Shown: piece by piece, positions 30,812 to 41,881 of the stretch
Position numbering within the stretch: the stretch's first letter is position 1
Layout of the letters: each line of letters begins with the position of its first letter
Origin: an uncultured Acidobacteriota bacterium
GTDB lineage: Bacteria > Acidobacteriota > CAIWXX01
Direction: 5' to 3'
Length of the DNA: 64,000 bases
Assembly: GCA_903916735.1 (NCBI GenBank)
Contig: CAIWXX010000008.1
Location: forward strand, 1 to 64,000
Made by a program: the position numbers and the translations under genes
The notes under the pieces: generated by a model
The model's database searches: none
What the model saw: only the letters and a program-made list of their open reading frames with translations
Told to the model about the DNA's origin: nothing

Positions 30812-32128
30812 TCACTCCGTCGGCGCGATCTCGCCATCATCATCCATGGAAGTCTCGGGCAGCAACGCTGTCGCATCCGATGCCGGCAGTTCCTGAACAT
30901 CCCGAAGTTTCCTCTGGATCGCCCTGCTCTTTTGTGCGACATCATCAATCTTGTTGGCGGCTTCATGCAGCTTTTTATGAACCGAATCCAGCAATCCTCC
31001 AAATCGGCTGAATTCCGTTTTGACAGCGCCCAGCACAGCCCAGACTTCGCTCGATCGTTTTTCAATGGCCAGCGTCCGAAACCCCATCTGAAGGCTATTG
31101 AGAATGGCCCACAGGGTCGTTGGGCCCGCGATGACAATGCGAAACTCGCGCTGGAGTGTCTCCGCCAAAGCCGCTCGTCGCAGCACTTCGGCATACAATC
31201 CCTCGATCGGAAGAAAGAGAATTCCAAAATCAGTCGTGTTTGGAGGGTCGATATATTTATCCCGGATGTCTTTGCAACAGGATCGGATCCGAAGTTCGAG
31301 CTGTCGCGCAGCAGCCTCAACCCCATCAGCATCGCCTCGATCGGAGGCATCCAATAAGCGAAGGTAATCTTCCTGGGGAAATTTTGCATCAATTGGAAGC
31401 CACACGGGTTTTTGTTCAAGCACATTGCGCCCTGGCAGCCGCAGGGCAAACTCGACGCGTTCGCTGCTGCCTTCTTTGGTCACCACATTGCTTGCATACT
31501 GTTCCGGGGCCAATACTTGATCCAGAAGCGCCTGTAACTGGACTTCGCCCCAGGTTCCACGGGCTTTAACATTCGTGAGCACTTTCTTGAGATCGCCGAC
31601 GCCGGCGGCAAGCGTCTGCATTTCGCCGAGTCCGCGGTGAACGAGCTCGAGCCGTTCGCTGACAAGCTTGAAGGATTCCCCCAGGCGCTTCTCTAATGTG
31701 CCTTGCAGCTTCTCATCGACGGTGAGTCGCATTTGTTCAAGCCGCGTATTGCTTTCGTCCTGGATCTGCTTCAAACGTGCATCAACGGCAGTACGAATGC
31801 CTTCAATTTGACCAGCAAAAAGTTCCAACTGATTTTTTTGGAGATTTCCCATTTCGGCCATGCTCTTGACGACCGAGTCGTTAAAATTCTTCAGCGAGAG
31901 GGTCATCTCCTCCCGGACATTTCGTGAAGATGACGAGGCTTCTTCCCGGCCGCGCGCCAGATCATCACGAAGTGAGCGCTCGACGCGTTCCAGAGCCCGT
32001 TCGGCAGCATCCAATCGGCTCTTCAACTCGGGCGAAAGACCCGAGCTGAATCGCCGCACCACAGATAATGTGAGCAGGATCAGGATGACGAGCAGAACGA
32101 TGGAAATCCATAGAAGTGACGTCATCAT
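30812..32128 (-). CDS. rmuC: RmuC-type DNA recombination protein
   Basis: 438 residues. An N-terminal membrane helix (LLWISIVLLVILILLTLSVV, about 4-24) precedes a long coiled coil (about 35-175). Then comes the RmuC core, with GTWGEVQLQALLDQVLAPEQ, the catalytic-like LPIDAKFPQEDYLRLL, DFGILFLPIEGLYAEVLRRA and IAGPTTLWAILNSLQMGFRT. The family limits inversions and is linked to a nuclease fold. Its start overlaps the end of the glycoside-hydrolase-like gene (ATGA), an odd pairing. Short acidic tail. Confidence 0.9.
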   Translation of the reverse strand: MMTSLLWISIVLLVILILLTLSVVRRFSSGLSPELKSRLDAAERALERVERSLRDDLARGREEASSSSRNVREEMTLSLKNFNDSVVKSMAEMGNLQKNQLELFAGQIEGIRTAVDARLKQIQDESNTRLEQMRLTVDEKLQGTLEKRLGESFKLVSERLELVHRGLGEMQTLAAGVGDLKKVLTNVKARGTWGEVQLQALLDQVLAPEQYASNVVTKEGSSERVEFALRLPGRNVLEQKPVWLPIDAKFPQEDYLRLLDASDRGDADGVEAAARQLELRIRSCCKDIRDKYIDPPNTTDFGILFLPIEGLYAEVLRRAALAETLQREFRIVIAGPTTLWAILNSLQMGFRTLAIEKRSSEVWAVLGAVKTEFSRFGGLLDSVHKKLHEAANKIDDVAQKSRAIQRKLRDVQELPASDATALLPETSMDDDGEIAPTE

Positions 32129-34647
32129 CGAGAGGCCTCATTCCAATCGACCGTCGGCGTTTTCATAGCTGGACGCGGAAGAGGAGTCATGTCGCCCACC
32201 GATAACTGGTCACTGGGAACAGCCGACCAAGAAGTTACCGACGACATGATTCCACTCTTCAATAGCGAAAGGATAGAGTGGAGATAATCATCATATGCGA
32301 ACAGACAGAAACCACCCGTGTTCTGTCTCCGGGTCTCAAGAATTTGAACGATGACTTTATCAAGCGGGAGCGGCTCACTTGACACGCCAATTCCCGGATG
32401 CACCGGCACGAGGCCATCGACATATTGAAGCTGCTGTTTGACCGTTACGGCGAAACCGGCCGAATCGGAGGTGTAATCCATGGGCAGAACAAAATCCAGA
32501 TAGCCGGCGCGAATCCAGCTCACCCAATCCTGTCCAACCCCGTCACGACAATCCGGGTAATCTGAAAAGACCGCGGCCGAAATTTTGACTGCCGGCTTGA
32601 TCGATTTGACGGCATCATGCACGTCCTTGACGAGCTTCGTGATCTGCAGGCAGCGCCAGTCATGGTATTCCTTTTGAAGCGACCCGTTGTAACAATCCCA
32701 TGGCCAGTTCGCGACAGGCTTTCCGTGTTTGGCTTCAAATCGCTTCCGGCAGCCTTTGCAGTAGCATGTCGTTTCATCCGGATACCGGATGTAGTCGAAA
32801 TGAATTCCGTCGACATCGTAGTTTTTCACGACTTCCAGAAGCGAATCCCGTTCCAAGGCCTCATTGAGCGGATTGGACGGACAGAGCCAGTCGATATCTT
32901 TCCCATTCACATCCACCTGCGTGCGCCCGGCGGATCTCATCTGGTTGATAAACGACTGTGGAGCCGTTGAGAGATTCCAGTCGACCTTCCAGACATGCAT
33001 TTCGAGTCCGCTTGCGCGGCACGCTGCCTGGCATTGCGCAATCTGGTCGCCGTATTGACGATAGATATCTGAACGCGGGAGGAGTTTTGATGGATAGTGC
33101 GCCGAGCCGCCGTCGAGCATATTCGGAAAAACGGCCGTGAAGCCGGCTTCTTTCAGCTCTTGTGTCGAACGCGGCCAGTTACCAGGCCAGAGTCCTGTGC
33201 CGGTATGATTCCAAACGGCATGAAATTCTCCGGAAAGTGGGCGCTGGCATAGGGCATATGCTGTTACGAGAGCCTCATGAGCTTCGAAAGCCGGTGAAAG
33301 CACTGTCGGATATCGATGCTTTGCGTAGGCGTTCTTGGAAATGGTCCATGCTTTCTTCGCAGCAGCCAGGGAATCTTCCACGCCCTTTGGATTGAGGCTC
33401 CCGGGACCTTGAGCTTTGATCCCGGCATAGGCTTTTTCAAAGCCATTATAGAGAGCCACCGATCCCATCCGATCCATGACACCGGAGGCAATCTCCTGAG
33501 CGAGTGAAGGCAGATCGTGCATGAGCAATGCGAGGATCATCTGCTGCTTCAACAGGAAATCGTCAGTCAGAAGGACATGCGACATGTACGAACCATGACG
33601 GCCGCTCAGAAGAGCAGGAAAGTCCAGGAGATTTCCATCGCAATCTTCCCATTTCGCAAGAACCTTCGTGCCGGGTTGTGATGGCTTCGCAACGATAAAA
33701 TTCCATGACGCCTGCAGAACCCGCTTCGGCATCCCTGGTATTCTTGTGGTGAATTTCATAGAACAGACGACCTTATCGATCCAATCGGTCTGTTCAATTC
33801 CAAGCAGATCCGTCACTCGTTCATCGATACTGTAAAATGCCCAAGCCTTCCCTCCCCCTTTGACAAATTTCTGTATCTGCTCAACTTCCGTATCGGACAA
33901 AATGCCGCTGTCGGGAAAAATCGCGAGTTGCGAGCCGGCGAGGCCTCCGGCTTCAACATCCTCATCCGCAATTTCGCTGAAAGGCACACCGAACTGTGTG
34001 AACCAATCAACAAACGGCTTGACATATTGCTCAGCCTCCTCATCAATATTTCCAACCCTTACAATTGTGACAGCTGGGCTATAGGCCATCAGACGATCCG
34101 CATAGATCGCCGTATCTTCGGAAACTTCACGCCAGGGCGAGAGGCGTATTGAATCGATCTGATCCCATCCAGCAGGATTCTCTTCCGTGCTGAATTCGCC
34201 CTTCTGGAAAACGAGGTTATTCCATCCAGTCTGCGTGAGGCTCTGACTCTGTCCATACCATCCATCCTGGCTATGGAAATAGAGAGTGACGGCGCTGATG
34301 GGCACTGAGTTTGAACAGAAGAGACGTAGCAAGAAGCATTGGTATCTGCTCAGGTCAAGTGTGACAGATCGATCCCAGTAGCAGCGTTCCCGATCCGATG
34401 TCGAGAAATCACATGGGAAAACGCTCAGGAGCTGCCTGCCCCATGGCCCGCTCTGAGCGATGTTCGGCAGAGGCGAACCTGCTCCAGCCTGCCATGCAGC
34501 TCGAATAGCCGCCGCTGACTTATAATTGAAGGGATCGATGTCATAGCCCAGGAGCGAGGTCACAGAGAACAGAAGGGTTAAAAGGCCACAAGCCGGCGAT
34601 GCCCATACAGGCATCGAGAACTTACTGAAAATTTTATTCATGACCAA
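32125..34647 (-). CDS. Secreted GHL10-like glycoside-hydrolase-family protein
   Basis: 840 residues. Signal peptide at about 15-35. The front part (35-220) looks like a carbohydrate-binding or discoidin-like fold (YQCFLLRLFCSNSVPISAVT, LYFHSQDGWYGQSQSL). Next is a glutamine-amidotransferase-like segment (VRVGNIDEEAEQYVKPF, VAEFPDS-like region). The C-terminal half (about 480-790) is a TIM barrel of the GHL10/DUF4015 kind: EFHAVWNHTGTGLWPG, VDGIHFDYIRYPDE, VKISAAVFSDYP and LDFVLPMDYTSDSA. This class acts on or binds polysaccharides; substrate unknown. It is coupled to rmuC. Confidence 0.72.
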   Translation of the reverse strand: MVMNKIFSKFSMPVWASPACGLLTLLFSVTSLLGYDIDPFNYKSAAAIRAAWQAGAGSPLPNIAQSGPWGRQLLSVFPCDFSTSDRERCYWDRSVTLDLSRYQCFLLRLFCSNSVPISAVTLYFHSQDGWYGQSQSLTQTGWNNLVFQKGEFSTEENPAGWDQIDSIRLSPWREVSEDTAIYADRLMAYSPAVTIVRVGNIDEEAEQYVKPFVDWFTQFGVPFSEIADEDVEAGGLAGSQLAIFPDSGILSDTEVEQIQKFVKGGGKAWAFYSIDERVTDLLGIEQTDWIDKVVCSMKFTTRIPGMPKRVLQASWNFIVAKPSQPGTKVLAKWEDCDGNLLDFPALLSGRHGSYMSHVLLTDDFLLKQQMILALLMHDLPSLAQEIASGVMDRMGSVALYNGFEKAYAGIKAQGPGSLNPKGVEDSLAAAKKAWTISKNAYAKHRYPTVLSPAFEAHEALVTAYALCQRPLSGEFHAVWNHTGTGLWPGNWPRSTQELKEAGFTAVFPNMLDGGSAHYPSKLLPRSDIYRQYGDQIAQCQAACRASGLEMHVWKVDWNLSTAPQSFINQMRSAGRTQVDVNGKDIDWLCPSNPLNEALERDSLLEVVKNYDVDGIHFDYIRYPDETTCYCKGCRKRFEAKHGKPVANWPWDCYNGSLQKEYHDWRCLQITKLVKDVHDAVKSIKPAVKISAAVFSDYPDCRDGVGQDWVSWIRAGYLDFVLPMDYTSDSAGFAVTVKQQLQYVDGLVPVHPGIGVSSEPLPLDKVIVQILETRRQNTGGFCLFAYDDYLHSILSLLKSGIMSSVTSWSAVPSDQLSVGDMTPLPRPAMKTPTVDWNEASR

Positions 34648-34854: not shown

Positions 34855-36459
34855 GTGAAAATCAGAAAATCATGCATTGCCGGTGTGATCGTTTTTGCGG
34901 CTCTGGCAACCGCCCTTGGGTTGGTGAAGATGACCACGGTTAGAAGTGGTTCATCGGCGCCACAGAGCCAAAGGAGTCAAAAAGTGTTAGAGGCGGCAGT
35001 GGCGGGTTTGTTCTATCCGGCGGAGCCAAGCGCGCTGGCGGAAATGGTCAGTGGATTTTTGGCGAAAGCTGACGGCAAACCGGTCGAGAATATTCGTGCT
35101 CTTGTTTCCCCGCATGCCGGCTATCCTTATTCCGGCCCGACAGCGGCCTATGCCTACAAGCAGCTAACGGGCCGCGACATCGAAACGGTCATCATCATGG
35201 GCCCAAGTCATTATGCATCGTTCATCGGCGGCGCGATTCCAGATGCCGATATCTGGAAAACACCCTTGGGAGATGTTCAAATATCATCCACGGCAAAAAA
35301 GCTTGCCGGTGAACGTCCCTTTGTCATCAATCCAAAATGCGAAGTCAGCCGGCCGCCGTGGTGGACCGAAGCCCCCAAGAAAGCACCGCCCTCCGGACAG
35401 GACACACCCTATACCTGGGAGCATTCGATCGAAGTGCAGCTGCCGTTTCTCCAGCGAGTGCTCAAAAATTTCTCGATTATCCCGATCATTTATGGAGAGA
35501 TCGATCCCGGCGAAGCGGCGCGGGTCATCGTCAAGTATATGGATGAGAAAACCATCCTCGTGGCCAGTTCGGATTTGAGCCATTACCATCCCTACGACAA
35601 AGCCAAGGAGCTTGACACTGATTGCGTCAAGGCCATCTGCGATCTCGATATCGGCCGAATGAGAAATGAAGAAGCATGCGGCAAGGTTCCCATCATGACA
35701 GTCATGTACATCGCTCAGATGAAGGGATGGAAGACGGCGCTTCTCGACTATCGCAACAGTGGCGACACGAGCGGGAACAAATCCGACGGGGTTGTCGGCT
35801 ATTCAGCCATTGCATTTTATGAACCGGCTCATCAATCAGCGAAGATGAAGGATCCTGCGCCGGCAGAGCCTGCCCAGAATACAAAAGGAAGCTTGACCGT
35901 CGAGGAAAAAAAGTTTCTGCTGGAGATGGCAAGGAAGACTCTCGTCTCAGTCGTGACGACAGGCAAAATGCCGGACGTCACCGCGACAGGTTTATCCGGC
36001 AAATTGACGGAACTCCGAGGTTGTTTCGTGACCCTTACGGAAAACAACGATCTGCGTGGATGCATTGGGCATATCCTGCCGCAAGAACCGCTCTACATGG
36101 CGGTCATGGATAATGCGCGCAATGCAGCGACTGAAGATCCTCGCTTTAACCCCGTCGTTCCGACGGAGCTCAATCGAATTCATATTGAGATAAGCGTCCT
36201 GACAGTCCCGGAACCGCTGAAATTCAATTCAACAAAAGAGCTGATCGAAAAGCTACGCCCCGGCGTGGATGGAGTTGTCCTAAAATCAGGGTATCATCAG
36301 GCGACCTACCTGCCGCAAGTCTGGGAGCAGCTTCCCGACAAAGAGACATTTCTGAACCAACTCTCCATCAAAGCCGGGGGATCTCCCTGGATGTGGAAAT
36401 CTCCTGGAGTCGAGGTTCAGATTTACCATGCGGAGGCTTTTGAGGAGCCGAAAAAATAA
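34855..36459 (+). CDS. MEMO1-AMMECR1 fusion of an AmmeMemoRadiSam system, with export signal
   Basis: 534 residues from GTG 34855 (AGGGGA about 6 bases upstream). Residues 7-24 are hydrophobic behind MKIRKS, a signal peptide or anchor. Residues about 43-330 form the MEMO domain (AAVAGLFYPAEPSALAEMV, LVSPHAGYPYSG with His87, VIIMGPSHYASF, WEHSIEVQLPFLQ, VASSDLSHYHPYD). Residues about 350-525 form AMMECR1 (LTELRGCFVTL, NDLRGCIGHILPQEPL). NCBI names these system proteins B and A; the reaction is unknown. Here the two are one chain, the front of a four-gene operon with a radical SAM enzyme. The domains are certain; export is inferred. Confidence 0.9.
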   Translation: MKIRKSCIAGVIVFAALATALGLVKMTTVRSGSSAPQSQRSQKVLEAAVAGLFYPAEPSALAEMVSGFLAKADGKPVENIRALVSPHAGYPYSGPTAAYAYKQLTGRDIETVIIMGPSHYASFIGGAIPDADIWKTPLGDVQISSTAKKLAGERPFVINPKCEVSRPPWWTEAPKKAPPSGQDTPYTWEHSIEVQLPFLQRVLKNFSIIPIIYGEIDPGEAARVIVKYMDEKTILVASSDLSHYHPYDKAKELDTDCVKAICDLDIGRMRNEEACGKVPIMTVMYIAQMKGWKTALLDYRNSGDTSGNKSDGVVGYSAIAFYEPAHQSAKMKDPAPAEPAQNTKGSLTVEEKKFLLEMARKTLVSVVTTGKMPDVTATGLSGKLTELRGCFVTLTENNDLRGCIGHILPQEPLYMAVMDNARNAATEDPRFNPVVPTELNRIHIEISVLTVPEPLKFNSTKELIEKLRPGVDGVVLKSGYHQATYLPQVWEQLPDKETFLNQLSIKAGGSPWMWKSPGVEVQIYHAEAFEEPKK

Positions 36460-36547
36460 TCCGTGAGCCGCACATTTTCGCATAGCAGCGATCCTCGTAC
36501 GCCGGTATGAGACCAAGAAGATCCGGAAGGCCATCGTTCTGCTCGCC

Positions 36548-38731
36548 GTGCCCAAGACCATGATGCTTAATCCCAAGCCACGGGTTGCCGGCGGCTTTCC
36601 ACTCACCTCGATAATCGCCGGCACACTTGGAGCCTCAGCCATCCTGACACAACTCGTGTTCATGCGGGAATTCTTGAGCGTTTTTTCCGGAAACGAAATC
36701 ATCTTCGGGATTACTCTGGGCATCTGGCTCCTGCTGACAGGAATCGGAACATCCATCGGGCGTGTCGGCACAGAATTCAAAGAGCCCATGACTCTGCTGA
36801 TCTCCGGATTGATGGTTCTGTCTTTTATTCCAGTCATCAGCATTTTCTTATTGAGAACAATACGAGACGTCGTCTTCATACGCGGTGCCGCTGTTGGATT
36901 GACAGAGGCGATACTGAGTTGCACCGTGTTGCTCCTCCCCTATTGCCTCCTATCGGGCGGCCTTCTGACGATCTCCTGCTCAGCATCATCCTCGAATGAC
37001 GGCCCGCGCAACATCGGCTGGGTTTATTTCTCGGACAATGTGGGAAGCATCATCGGCGGGTTCTTTTTCACATTTGTGCTGGTCACATCGTTCAGTCATT
37101 TTGGAATACTCTACGCTCAATCATTCGCCACTCTGGCAGTCGCAGGAATCGCTTCATGGCATCGACGACAAAAGTTGCTCGTGTTCATGGCCGGTCTGAT
37201 CCTCGCCGCCTTGATTGGAATCGCCACCCTCACAGACATGGATTCGATATCGACCGGGATGCAGTATCCGGGGCAGACGATTGCTTTTGCTGGCAATTCT
37301 GCCTATGGCCGGTTGATTGTCACAGAACTGGATGGGCAGCTGAATTTCATCGAAAATGGAATACCGCTTTTTGCGAGCAGCAATATTCAGGAGATCGAGG
37401 AATCGGTTCACTACGCGATGGCGCAGAGACCATCAGCCGGCCGTGTTCTGATTCTTGCCGGCGGCGTTTCCGGGACGGCACGAGAGGTATTGAAGTACGG
37501 CACCGGCGAGGTCGCCTCGGTCGAAATAGATCCACTCGTCCTGAAAGTCGGCAGAAAATTTTTTCGAAATAACGTGCTGGATCCGCGCATCAGACTCATC
37601 CAGATGGACGGGCGGATGTACCTCAAACAAGCCAAAGACAGCTATGACGTGATTATCTCGGAAGTGCCCGATCCGACAACCTGCCAGCTGAATCGTTACT
37701 TCACGATCGAGTTTTTCCAGGAGGTGAAGCGAGCTCTGATGCCTGGCGGCGTGCTATCAATATCGATGGGGCATTATGAGAATTATGTGAACCCGGAGTT
37801 GTCTCGTTCAATCGCCGCCCTCCATCATACACTCGCAGCGGTTTTCAAGAATGTGATGATGATCCCCGGCGGGAAAATTTATTTCCTGGCATCTGATGGC
37901 GAAATGACCAAGGACATTTCAACCCGGCTCGCCGAACATCTGATATCGCCTGTCTCCATCAGGAGAGATTATATTCAGGAAGTGATGAGACCTGATCGAC
38001 TTCTGGATATCAATCGTGCCATCGCAGAAAAGGCGCCTCTGAATACCGACTTCTATCCGATCCTCTACTATTATCGTCTCATCTTCTGGATGAACCAGTT
38101 TGACGTCCAACTGGGATTTCTCCTGGCGCTTCTGATCGCCTTGACAACTCCATACCTGCTGAAGATGCGTGCCATTGCATTCGCAATTTTCGTCTCTGGA
38201 TTTGCCGCATCGGCATTGGAAATCGTGCTTCTCATTTTCTTCCAGGTCCTTTTTGGAAGCCTCTACCAGCAGATCGGCCTGATCATGACCGTGTTCATGA
38301 CAGGACTGGCGATTGGATCATTTGTGGTCAATCGCCTCGTGCAACTTCCGGGCCGAAGGCACGTCGCAGTTCTGGCTTTCTGCATTGCCCTTTTTGCATT
38401 GATCCTGCCAATCGTCCTCAAGTGGCTGAGCCATATTCAGCCATGGACAACCTCGATCACTATTCTGGGCCAGGCCGTATTCGCATTCCTGACTCTACTC
38501 CTGGCGCTTTTGGTTGGGATGCAATTCCCGGCAGCGGCGAGAACAGGATTTGAAACAACAGCGCGTACCGCGGCACGCATGTATACTGCCGATTTTATCG
38601 GAGCCTTTTTAGGGGCTTCGATCTTCAGCAGTTTTGTCATTCCTCGATGTGGCGTCACCACAGCATGCCTGGTTATTGCGGGGATGATTATCGTGAGCGG
38701 CTTCGTCGTCGGTTTCAAACGTGGAGTATGA
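36548..38731 (+). CDS. Membrane-embedded spermidine-synthase-like protein
   Basis: 727 residues (GTG 36548, or ATG 36560). About seven N-terminal TM segments (residues 18-225), then a soluble domain at about 230-480 with the aminopropyltransferase/methyltransferase pattern: GNSAYGRLIVTEL, LILAGGVSGTAREVL (SAM-binding glycine loop), VEIDPLVLKVGRKFF, IRLIQMDGRMYLKQ, YDVIISEVPDPTTCQLNRYF. A second bundle of about seven TM segments (515-725) follows. Proteins of this plan have no proven polyamine role. It lies 88 bases after the MEMO1-AMMECR1 fusion and 14 bases before the small b-heme-like gene, so it should serve the same pathway. Confidence 0.87.
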   Translation: MPKTMMLNPKPRVAGGFPLTSIIAGTLGASAILTQLVFMREFLSVFSGNEIIFGITLGIWLLLTGIGTSIGRVGTEFKEPMTLLISGLMVLSFIPVISIFLLRTIRDVVFIRGAAVGLTEAILSCTVLLLPYCLLSGGLLTISCSASSSNDGPRNIGWVYFSDNVGSIIGGFFFTFVLVTSFSHFGILYAQSFATLAVAGIASWHRRQKLLVFMAGLILAALIGIATLTDMDSISTGMQYPGQTIAFAGNSAYGRLIVTELDGQLNFIENGIPLFASSNIQEIEESVHYAMAQRPSAGRVLILAGGVSGTAREVLKYGTGEVASVEIDPLVLKVGRKFFRNNVLDPRIRLIQMDGRMYLKQAKDSYDVIISEVPDPTTCQLNRYFTIEFFQEVKRALMPGGVLSISMGHYENYVNPELSRSIAALHHTLAAVFKNVMMIPGGKIYFLASDGEMTKDISTRLAEHLISPVSIRRDYIQEVMRPDRLLDINRAIAEKAPLNTDFYPILYYYRLIFWMNQFDVQLGFLLALLIALTTPYLLKMRAIAFAIFVSGFAASALEIVLLIFFQVLFGSLYQQIGLIMTVFMTGLAIGSFVVNRLVQLPGRRHVAVLAFCIALFALILPIVLKWLSHIQPWTTSITILGQAVFAFLTLLLALLVGMQFPAAARTGFETTARTAARMYTADFIGAFLGASIFSSFVIPRCGVTTACLVIAGMIIVSGFVVGFKRGV

Positions 38732-38745
38732 TCGGGGGAGAGAGA

Positions 38746-39030
38746 ATGTTGCGAAAAGGCCGTAACTACTACCTCGTGAAAATCAACCGGTTCACCGGCT
38801 GGTGCCTTTTTCTACTCGTGCTATTATTCATACTGACGGGATTCTCGCTATGCGGAATGTTCGGTTTCAACAGGACACTCAGTTCGCAGACTGCCCTGAG
38901 GATCCACAAATTCTTCGACTGGCCTCTCGTGATTATTTTCATCCTTCACTCCGTCATCAATTTCTATTTTTCGTTTAGGAGATGGGGATGGATTCGAAAA
39001 AAGACGTCCACCCTAAAGAACCAGGGATGA
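38746..39030 (+). CDS. Small b-heme-like membrane protein
   Basis: 94 residues from ATG 38746, with GGGGGAG about 6 bases upstream. Two TM helices: GWCLFLLVLLFILTGFSL (about 17-36) and DWPLVIIFILHSVINFYF (about 57-75). RIHKFFDWP and the FILHSVINF His 14 positions later are spaced like the bis-His ligands of small cytochrome b-type (DUF4405-like) subunits. It may pass electrons to a membrane partner. The basic C-terminus (RRWGWIRKKTSTLKNQG) overlaps the front of the radical SAM gene. Function inferred from His spacing and context. Confidence 0.65.
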   Translation: MLRKGRNYYLVKINRFTGWCLFLLVLLFILTGFSLCGMFGFNRTLSSQTALRIHKFFDWPLVIIFILHSVINFYFSFRRWGWIRKKTSTLKNQG

Positions 39031-40325
39031 AGAACACAAGTTCTTACAATCCAAAAAGGTCGGGCATGATCTCACGCCGGCAAGCGATCGGAACTGGAAC
39101 GATGGGACTCGCAAGCTTCGCCATATCCGACCCTGTTAAAACCTTCATGAATTGGCTGGCATCATTCGCGGCGCCCGACACCGGCGTCTTCAAAAAAGAC
39201 GCTCCTGTCGGTGAACTCTGGGAGTTATGGAAAAAGCGGGGTTGGGTCAAAGAAGCGTATCACTACCTGAAATTGGGGCGGAATGTTCAATGTAAAGTGT
39301 GTCCAAATGAATGCCTGCTGGAACCGGATGACCGCAGCCATTGCCGGAATAAGGTGAACAAGGACGGAGCACTCTACACGATGGCTTATGGCGATCCATG
39401 CACATTTCATGTCGATCCAGTTGAGAAAAAACCGCTTCTCCATTTTTATCCGGGAATGCAAACATTTTCCATCGCGACGTCCGGATGTGGCTTTCGATGC
39501 CTGAATTGTCAGAATTGGGAAATTTCACAGAAGAAACCTGAAGAGACGAAAGATCCTCGCGGCACATCGATCAGATGCACCCCCCAGCAACTCCCCTTTC
39601 TCAGGCAGGAGGATATCGCTCGCATGAGTATGTTCCCGGAAGATGTCGTTTCGATGGCTCAATATACCAACTGCCCGGCTATCGCATACACCTATTCGGA
39701 ACCGACATGCTACTTCGAATATATGTACGACACAGCAAAACTGGCGAGGAGCCGCAGGTTGAAAAATATCTGGGTTAGTTGTGGCTACATCCAGCAAGAA
39801 ACTCTCCTCGATCTCTGCCAGTACATCGACGCCGCTCATATCGATCTCAAGAGCTTCAGCGAGGACATATACGCGAAGCTGAACACCGGCAAACTTCAAC
39901 CGATCCTCGACACGATCAGGACACTCCGACAGAAAGGGATATGGTTCGAAGTCATTAATCTTGTCATTCCGACATATACCGACAATATGAGCATGATTCG
40001 GCAGATGTGCGATTGGCTGGTTAAATACACAGGCCCCGATCAGCCGCTGCATTTTTCTCGATTCCAGCCCCTGCACAAATTGACGCAACTTCCGCCAACT
40101 CCAACCGAAACACTGCTAAGAGCACGCGAGACGGCCAGGAACGCAGGACTGCAATTCGTTTATATCGGTAACGCACCTGAAATTGCTGACGGGGAAACAA
40201 CCTTCTGCCCCGGCTGCAAAAAAGCGATCATCGAACGTGATATATTCGCCATTCGCAGCATGAATGTGTCGAGCGGAAAATGTAAATTCTGTGGAACCAA
40301 GATCGCAGGAGTCTGGCAGGCATAG
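38988..40325 (+). CDS. amrS: AmmeMemoRadiSam system radical SAM enzyme with twin-arginine motif
   Basis: 445 residues from ATG 38988, where TAGGAG is 6 bases upstream; ATG 39027 (ATGA overlap with the previous stop) is an alternative. The N-terminal SRRQAIGTGTMGLASFAIS is a Tat-like signal, strange for a cytoplasmic-type enzyme. The fold carries CKVCPNECLLEPDDRSHC before the [4Fe-4S] loop SGCGFRCLNCQNWE (CX3CX2C, Cys167/171/174), then AYTYSEPTCYFEY and HIDLKSFSEDIYAKLN. The C-terminal CPGCKKAII and KCKFCGTKIAG form a zinc-ribbon-like pair. It is the third marker of the system, completing the fusion gene upstream. Confidence 0.9.
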   Translation: MDSKKDVHPKEPGMKNTSSYNPKRSGMISRRQAIGTGTMGLASFAISDPVKTFMNWLASFAAPDTGVFKKDAPVGELWELWKKRGWVKEAYHYLKLGRNVQCKVCPNECLLEPDDRSHCRNKVNKDGALYTMAYGDPCTFHVDPVEKKPLLHFYPGMQTFSIATSGCGFRCLNCQNWEISQKKPEETKDPRGTSIRCTPQQLPFLRQEDIARMSMFPEDVVSMAQYTNCPAIAYTYSEPTCYFEYMYDTAKLARSRRLKNIWVSCGYIQQETLLDLCQYIDAAHIDLKSFSEDIYAKLNTGKLQPILDTIRTLRQKGIWFEVINLVIPTYTDNMSMIRQMCDWLVKYTGPDQPLHFSRFQPLHKLTQLPPTPTETLLRARETARNAGLQFVYIGNAPEIADGETTFCPGCKKAIIERDIFAIRSMNVSSGKCKFCGTKIAGVWQA

Positions 40326-40702: not shown

Positions 40703-41881
40703 CTATTTCTCAACGCCGCTTTTCACCTGGGCCGGAACGATGGTGAAAAGAGTCACGATCGGGGGCGACATCAACCTCATCGGAGGTCCCCACGTCCCAG
40801 CCCCGCGGCTTGTATAGAGGAGTGATCCTTTTGCAAGAGGATAGAGCCCATCAATCATGGGGAAGCTCATCTGTACAAAAAAATTAAATGGGAAGATCTG
40901 TCCTCGGTGAGTATGCCCTGAAATTTGCAGATCAAACCGCCCGAGTGAAGCCGGGTTGATGAGTGGACGGTGTTTCAAGAGAAGCGTCAATGGCCTGGGA
41001 TTCATTGATGGAAGGATCTGATTTTCAGAGGTCGTCGGCGATTCATCGCTCACCGACGCCCCTGAATCATCGACGCCGACAACCAGTACCCTTTCATTAA
41101 TGGCGATTGATTCTCCGCGCAAGATTCGAAATCCGGCACTCTTGATGAACGCCAGACTCGGTTTAATGCCCGCGTAGAATTCATGATTTCCGGTGATGGC
41201 AAACTTCCCTAATGGCGCATGCAAGGAGGCCATTAAGTCAGCCAGATGATTCATATGCCCTGTCGTGCCGTCAACAAGATCTCCTGTCATCACGATCATA
41301 TCCGGATGGGCCTGATTGACCAGGTCAATAATCTGCCGTAACCGCCACTCGCCGACGAGTAAGCCCAGGTGCACGTCTGAGATCTGGCAAACCGTCATTG
41401 GCGGGGATCCAGGCAGGAGCGATCCTGTTTGTATCGTGACCCGTTCCAGACGGATATGATGGGCTTCTCGAAGACTCCACATGCCAGCCAGTAGAATGAG
41501 GATCAGGAACACGGAAGTGCTGCCATAGATGGGAATTGCAATTTTAGATGCGATCGGCAAGAAACGAGCGATGATCCAGATGAGAGTATTCCATAGATCT
41601 CGGATGAGCCCGATCATGAAGAACCAAAACGCGAGGGCCATCCATGAATAAACGACATAGGCCATGAGTTTCGCAACGGCAATCATGCCGCCATGCTCCA
41701 GATATCGAACCACGATCGGACCCAAAACCATGAAAATAAGAAAAGATGTCAGGATCCAAATCGACACGCCGCTCAAGCGAAAAGCCCGCCGCATCTCCCA
41801 CAAAAAGAAGAGGTTGACCCCACCATAAATGGTCAGGTAAAATAGCAGAAATACTGTCATCAGTGATGATTTTCCTTTCAC
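40703..41881 (-). CDS. Membrane-anchored metallophosphoesterase (YkuE-like)
   Basis: 392 residues. Four or more hydrophobic helices fill residues 5-155, including LMTVFLLFYLTIYG, SIWILTSFLIFMVLGPIV and STSVFLILILLAGMW. The catalytic part from about 160 has the full metal-binding set: CQISDVHLG, MTGDLVDG, ITGNHEFYAG and QISGHTHRGQIFP. Family members hydrolyse phosphodiesters or UDP-type lipids at the membrane; substrate unknown. It is transcribed alone, toward the AmmeMemoRadiSam operon. Confidence 0.85.
   Translation of the reverse strand: MKGKSSLMTVFLLFYLTIYGGVNLFFLWEMRRAFRLSGVSIWILTSFLIFMVLGPIVVRYLEHGGMIAVAKLMAYVVYSWMALAFWFFMIGLIRDLWNTLIWIIARFLPIASKIAIPIYGSTSVFLILILLAGMWSLREAHHIRLERVTIQTGSLLPGSPPMTVCQISDVHLGLLVGEWRLRQIIDLVNQAHPDMIVMTGDLVDGTTGHMNHLADLMASLHAPLGKFAITGNHEFYAGIKPSLAFIKSAGFRILRGESIAINERVLVVGVDDSGASVSDESPTTSENQILPSMNPRPLTLLLKHRPLINPASLGRFDLQISGHTHRGQIFPFNFFVQMSFPMIDGLYPLAKGSLLYTSRGAGTWGPPMRLMSPPIVTLFTIVPAQVKSGVEK

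Follow-up and report, generated by a model that had tools for sequence, protein, structure and literature searches.

The gene cluster at 34855-40325

The window, that is, the whole analysed stretch of 64,000 nucleotides from a contig of an uncultured Acidobacteriota bacterium, carries four genes on the plus strand at 34855-40325. They form one 5.5-kb run with short gaps or overlaps, in which the AmmeMemoRadiSam genes are clustered. The features are as follows.

34855..36459, plus strand: MEMO1-AMMECR1 fusion (amrB-amrA), 534 aa, GTG start, predicted to be exported (TIGR04336, TIGR04335, PF01875, PF01871)
34855..34929, plus strand: predicted Sec-type signal of the fusion (peptide or anchor) in residues 1-25, with a hydrophobic stretch after K-x-R-K
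34990..35817, plus strand: MEMO domain, LigB-like fold, metal-binding
35914..36441, plus strand: AMMECR1 domain with the LRGCIG motif
36548..38731, plus strand: 14-TM MFS-like protein with an inserted spermidine-synthase-like domain (NF037959, AlphaFold2)
37265..38062, plus strand: spermidine-synthase-like domain, predicted to be exocytoplasmic (positive-inside rule, Foldseek)
38746..39030, plus strand: small TM protein with two conserved His, possibly a b-type cytochrome (weak matches)
39027..40325, plus strand: AmmeMemoRadiSam radical SAM enzyme (amrS), predicted Tat substrate (TIGR04337)
39075..39080, plus strand: twin arginines of the Tat motif SRRQAIG (read from the sequence; RR invariant in a 12-homologue alignment)
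39486..39509, plus strand: CxxxCxxC cluster motif, C169, C173 and C176 (numbered from the 38982 start)

The flanking genes lie on the opposite strand and encode a GHL10-type glycosyl-hydrolase-like protein and a metallophosphoesterase. A plasmid search returned distant matches only.

The first protein matches TIGR04336 (MEMO) with 234 bits over residues 46-321 (cut-off 26) and TIGR04335 (AMMECR1) with 199 bits over residues 354-529 (cut-off 99). PF01875 and PF01871 also match. AGGGGA is found upstream of its GTG start. The metal ligands of human MEMO1 are H49, H81 and C244 (PMC11081632). The fold is shared with human MEMO1 (PDB 7KQ8), and the three ligands correspond to H87, H119 and C275 of the window protein, the pairing of C244 with C275 being inferred as the alignment ends before C244. 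These three residues are conserved at 98-100% in 61 fusions. Unlike human MEMO1, the window MEMO is predicted to be exported and is fused to AMMECR1.

The radical SAM enzyme scored 325 bits against TIGR04337 (cut-off 220). Its AlphaFold2 model (pLDDT 90.5) best matched the fold of the PFL-activating enzyme with AdoMet, 3cb8 (TM score 0.76 on the target). The PFL-activating enzyme (TIGR02493) is the closest relative both in solved fold and by HMM, but the window enzyme has an additional set of cysteines at the N-terminus and cysteine pairs at the C-terminus, and is predicted to be exported. With 49.4 bits against TIGR02493 (cut-off 231.75), it is not a PFL-activating enzyme by that model. No glycyl-radical enzyme was recognised among the recurrent neighbours of these loci. 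The CxxxCxxC motif and the remaining cysteines are kept in exported and signal-less enzymes alike, and so are TYxEP and DLK, motifs that we take to be SAM-binding. This conservation argues for retained radical SAM chemistry.

With its three domains above the cut-offs and the same cysteine layout, the locus belongs to the AmmeMemoRadiSam system (TIGR04335, TIGR04336, TIGR04337; amrA, amrB, amrS). It differs from the known system in that MEMO and AMMECR1 are fused and bear a signal, the radical SAM enzyme has a Tat signal, and there is an extra 14-TM partner. The host genome also encodes a second, signal-less radical SAM enzyme (C78) and a stand-alone MEMO protein (C3).

Predicted export signals of the enzyme and the fusion

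The initial annotation described a signal anchor on the fusion and a Tat-like motif on the radical SAM enzyme. Both are present. The fusion begins with a hydrophobic N-terminus, MKIRKSCIAGVIVFAALATALGLVK, ahead of its two domain matches. The N-terminal Tat-type sequence of the enzyme is MISRRQAIGTGTMGLASFAIS, in which the motif SRRQAIG is a weak, degenerate form with A in place of the usual F. The textbook Tat motif is S-RR-x-F-L-K, and most of the 68 distinct homologues with RR show this classical form; their consensus is S-RR-[DEQ]-F-L-K, and their logo S-RR-[DE]-F-L-K (S in 27/68, F in 51/68, L in 36/68). All 12 homologues in an alignment share RR. A conserved twin arginine followed by a hydrophobic stretch, as in a Tat substrate, is thus found here, albeit without the usual F in the window protein. 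TatC of the host was detected with 244 bits, indicating that the Tat translocase is available.

The start of the enzyme is most likely ATG 39027 rather than 38982. ATG 39027 overlaps the stop of the preceding gene (38746-39030) as ATGA, and precedes the twin arginines by 16 codons. Both 39027 and another candidate start, 39066, lie upstream of RR, so predicted export is independent of the choice between them.

Signals were assigned by rule at 147 loci: RR plus a hydrophobic stretch in 80, KR in 10 and a Sec-like signal in 13. The same rules were satisfied by 3.0% (RR), 2.3% (KR) and 2.7% (Sec-like) of shuffled N-terminal extensions. Removal of duplicates left 138 distinct relatives, and six signal labels were corrected by eye. 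Homologues lacking the motif and starting downstream of it, which the initial annotation had named as the refuting finding, were not the outcome: the Tat signal is kept or is replaced by a Sec-like one. The 138 comprise 68 with RR, 12 with KR or similar (one RK), 16 with a Sec-like signal and 42 without a signal. The sample favours relatives of the window protein, and the counts are therefore not prevalences.

In a tree of the enzyme core, built with the N-terminus excluded, the signal classes are clustered, requiring 14 changes versus 58 with shuffled labels. One separate clade of 19 sequences is wholly signal-less, and the other clade is mixed. Among the carriers with names are Desulfobacterales, Planctomycetota, Acidobacteria (Solibacteraceae), Latescibacterota, Omnitrophota and Bacteroidota, together with a small number of archaeal MAGs; nearly all of them are metagenome-assembled, and single assignments may be wrong. 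Judged from these predicted signals, the exported AmmeMemoRadiSam is a widespread variant of a known system, not a local quirk.

Signals were found by rule in 53 of the 60 fused MEMO-AMMECR1 proteins beside these enzymes. Two more fusions missed by the rule (L046 and L073) have a signal visible by eye, and some fusion signals include a lipobox. Stand-alone MEMO proteins, 29 from the phylum of the window and the genome's own, have no signal and begin at the domain; L178, whose reading frame was wrong, is left out of this number. Counted from frame lengths, at least 41 of the 99 MEMO-bearing genomes of the phylum have both stand-alone and fused MEMO. The table of MEMO signal against radical SAM signal (46:5 vs 7:2) was not significant (p 0.28). 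As fused MEMO proteins bear signals even where the radical SAM enzyme does not, the cleaner contrast is that between fused and stand-alone MEMO.

The membrane proteins and candidate redox partners

The two other genes had been described as encoding membrane proteins, which agrees with our predictions: 36548-38731 encodes 14 TM helices and 38746-39030 a short TM protein. Hydropathy averaged over the family and an AlphaFold2 model (pLDDT 88, pTM 0.89) show the 14-TM protein as two sets of seven helices on either side of a spermidine-synthase-like domain. It scored 72.9 bits against NF037959 (cut-off 40), in line with the TM plus SpdSyn architecture of that family, and Foldseek matched the inserted domain to the spermidine synthases 1uir, 3o4f and 1inl. 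Counts of K plus R favour an inside N-terminus in 28/28 homologues (mean 17.0 vs 2.0). By the positive-inside rule, this would place the spermidine-synthase-like domain outside in all 28.

The protein shares TM helices and a spermidine-synthase-like domain with the fused MFS/spermidine synthase (NF037959) and membrane SpeE (PRK03612), but lacks the conserved GGGDGG and catalytic Asp, and falls below the equivalog cut-off of PRK03612. It is no spermidine synthase by the speE model either (80.7 bits, cut-off 249.55). Among its homologues the positions of the GGGDGG Asp and the catalytic Asp are not conserved, whereas NR[FY] is near-invariant. It is therefore probably not an aminopropyltransferase. 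The loss of these residues makes the ligand of the domain a guess; fold and context suggest that the 14-TM protein may handle SAM.

Relatives of the 14-TM protein adjoin signal-bearing radical SAM enzymes in 57/90 loci. Fisher's test of enzyme export against the transporter neighbour gave p 7e-6. Independent contrasts numbered only 4-8, and their sign test was not significant. The Fisher p value is therefore not taken as proof, and the association mostly reflects one shared ancestry. At three transporter loci without an enzyme signal (L103, L124 and L143), the N-termini are short or cut, so the contrast may be blurred.

The small protein encoded at 38746-39030, whose gene is preceded by a strong Shine-Dalgarno-like stretch, matched Sdh_cyt (17.1 bits, E 0.006) and b561 (15.8 bits, E 0.012), both below the cut-offs. 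Its two His are conserved in three sequences, those of the window and of homologues in the same place at L080 and L081.

Other lineages have other modules. Ten members of one clade carry CxxCH between the Tat signal and the radical SAM core, 22-27 residues before the core CxxC. Haem c is attached only outside the cytoplasm, and the CxxCH would fit haem c. Cytochrome c assembly genes are present in the searched genomes of this clade and equally in the other searched genomes, so that they add little to this assignment. A DsbD_2 gene is found at six Sec-type loci. Homologues of a 555-aa protein occur at three further loci and at L103; in L107 this protein carries DsbD_2, FMN_bind and Fer4_5. The 14-TM protein of L046 ends in a fused Fer4_5 (NapH-like) part. 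A DUF362 partner, often with its own Tat motif, occurs in 24 loci and is absent from the window. The large DUF362 clade showed no identifiable redox module, and no solved structural relative of DUF362 was found.

An adjoining membrane redox partner is also seen for other Tat-exported Fe-S proteins, which are encoded alongside b-type cytochromes or quinol oxidases in gene modules (PMC10924467). Those are described as electron-transfer proteins, whereas the window protein is a radical SAM enzyme; in that paper radical SAM is mentioned once, as a neighbouring gene.

Predicted location and possible chemistry of the system

Radical SAM enzymes are regarded as cytoplasmic because they depend on SAM, on low-potential electrons and on Fe-S clusters in the reduced state. 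It is likely, with a probability of about 0.6, that 34855-40325 is a conserved exocytoplasmic variant of AmmeMemoRadiSam, with the mechanism of SAM and electron supply proposed below. The envelope location suggested in the initial annotation is borne out at the level of prediction by the Tat and Sec-like signals on the enzymes, the signals on the MEMO fusions and the outward spermidine-synthase-like domain; for these three components, a location outside the cytoplasm is well supported by sequence. The difficulty of electron and SAM supply that it raised is real. Candidate redox modules stand beside the enzyme in several lineages, but nothing here places SAM outside the cytoplasm.

For SAM delivery, the electron path and the substrate, we infer the following scheme. 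The radical SAM enzyme would be loaded with its Fe-S cluster(s) and folded in the cytoplasm, and Tat would then move it, folded, to the periplasm or to the membrane's outer face. Sec would take the MEMO-AMMECR1 fusion across separately, leaving it anchored or free outside. The 14-TM protein would display its spermidine-synthase-like domain, of a type binding SAM/MTA-like nucleosides, on the outer face, and would most likely serve the enzyme by moving or presenting SAM, or by clearing the spent nucleoside. Reducing equivalents would be carried across by a membrane redox protein, which in the window would be the small two-His protein. The enzyme, of the PFL-activase type, may then generate a radical on a substrate in the envelope or outside the cell, with the MEMO metal site working on that substrate or on its product.

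A more complete version is tentative and, in our view, rather doubtful. Here a self-contained extracytoplasmic radical SAM pathway would receive SAM from the MFS/SpdSyn-type protein and low-potential electrons from lineage-specific modules (b-type cytochrome, haem c, NapH-like or DsbD_2-FMN), the Tat-exported enzyme and the MEMO-AMMECR1 metalloprotein would modify an envelope target, and a cytoplasmic copy would act in parallel. Several points count against the exocytoplasmic reading as a whole. SAM is not known to occur outside the cytoplasm, and quinol-level donors are too weak for a SAM-bound cluster and energetically poor for SAM cleavage. Sec-type signals on some enzymes would require cluster insertion outside, and the Bacteroidales enzymes described below have no signal.

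If the exocytoplasmic reading is true, a broad, conserved family of radical SAM enzymes exported by Tat, elsewhere by Sec-like signals, breaks the cytoplasm-only rule, and an extracytoplasmic SAM supply is implied. It could also help to solve what MEMO1 and AMMECR1 do, both of which have human homologues: the exported version narrows the substrates to envelope or extracellular ones, and simple localisation tests could follow this route. In the literature searched, no functional study of any AmmeMemoRadiSam member and no periplasmic radical SAM enzyme were found, with an earlier mention of exported forms possible in Burroughs et al. 2019. Memo-Ammecr1 systems were described in that work, as cited in PMC7159879.

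The problem of SAM and electrons would disappear if the Tat- and Sec-like N-termini were only membrane anchors, holding the enzymes at the inner face with cytoplasmic SAM and ferredoxin. Some Bacteroidales enzymes entirely without a signal are compatible with this. We consider it unlikely, since the conserved element is the classical Tat motif and not a mere hydrophobic helix, the MEMO-AMMECR1 fusions bear Sec signals (in some cases including a lipobox), the positive-inside rule puts the spermidine-synthase-like domain outside, and the CxxCH motifs suit an outside location.

It is quite unlikely that the enzyme is exported but performs no radical SAM chemistry outside, its cluster serving as an electron carrier or sensor, or in a single turnover with preloaded SAM. 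We know of no SAM pool outside the cytoplasm, one action per target is conceivable for a PFL-activase-like enzyme, and the adjoining redox modules could serve plain electron transfer. The retention of the cluster cysteines, TYxEP and DLK in exported and signal-less members speaks against it, as does the recurrence of a nucleoside-binding-type membrane partner beside signal-bearing enzymes.

A split system, with MEMO-AMMECR1 and the transporter outside, a radical SAM target that is exported later, and a lineage-specific Tat signal on the enzyme, is very unlikely. The counter-example is Segatella hominis (L198; amrB and amrS annotated in RefSeq), where the MEMO fusion has a signal peptide and the enzyme starts with MKECRYY, without a signal. 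The same combination of an exported MEMO fusion and a signal-less enzyme occurs in the Bacteroidales loci L093, L095, L152 and L155. The enzyme and the fusion thus need not share a compartment in this subgroup, but in most lineages examined the enzyme itself bears a Tat or Sec-like signal.

Translation from downstream of RR, giving an ordinary cytoplasmic enzyme, would draw on the further in-frame ATG at 39102 and the degenerate motif of the window, but this start-codon artefact is rejected as extremely unlikely, because RR is invariant in the 12 divergent homologues, forms a consensus in 68 and arises in 3% of shuffles, and because the ATGA-coupled start lies upstream of it.

Related proteins encoded in the same genome

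On contig C78 (L001, 1444-2496), the window's own genome encodes a second AmmeMemoRadiSam-family radical SAM enzyme, and on contig C3 (L005) a stand-alone MEMO. Neither carries a signal, and the two genes lie on separate contigs. They are the predicted cytoplasmic counterpart, in the same genome, of the predicted exported system at 34855-40325. Diverged MEMO-like proteins with longer frames are encoded on C183 (L007; 404 aa, 86 bits) and C117 (L008; 466 aa, 70 bits). These two possibly constitute a further MEMO subfamily. Several further proteins, encoded on C20, C24, C96, C146, and C17 (L191-L197), are weakly similar to the spermidine-synthase-like part of the 14-TM protein; they have long frames with predicted TM segments.

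Variation among the radical SAM enzymes

An insert of ~23 residues, around KDPRGTSIRCTPQQLPFLRQ (window 39540-39615), is present past the cluster motif of the window enzyme. A similar insert is observed in its nearest relative, L080, and is absent from the other 11 sequences of the aligned set. The radical SAM enzymes of nine loci (L106, L107, L108, L113, L114, L118, L126, L131, and L140) have a Sec-like, not a Tat, signal. Each of the nine lies near a membrane gene of DsbD_2 type or near a homologue of such a gene. If these enzymes are exported unfolded, Fe-S assembly outside would be required.

Flanking genes and a plasmid-borne carrier

The system is flanked by two genes:
32125-34647, strand opposite to the system, GHL10 glycosyl-hydrolase-like protein
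40703-41881, strand opposite to the system, membrane metallophosphoesterase
Neither gene shows a sign of a link to the AmmeMemoRadiSam system.

On a plasmid of Segatella hominis (NZ_CP137560.1; L198, 2486-4903), a predicted exported MEMO-AMMECR1 fusion adjoins a signal-less radical SAM enzyme, which is annotated in RefSeq. This carrier has an isolate strain name.
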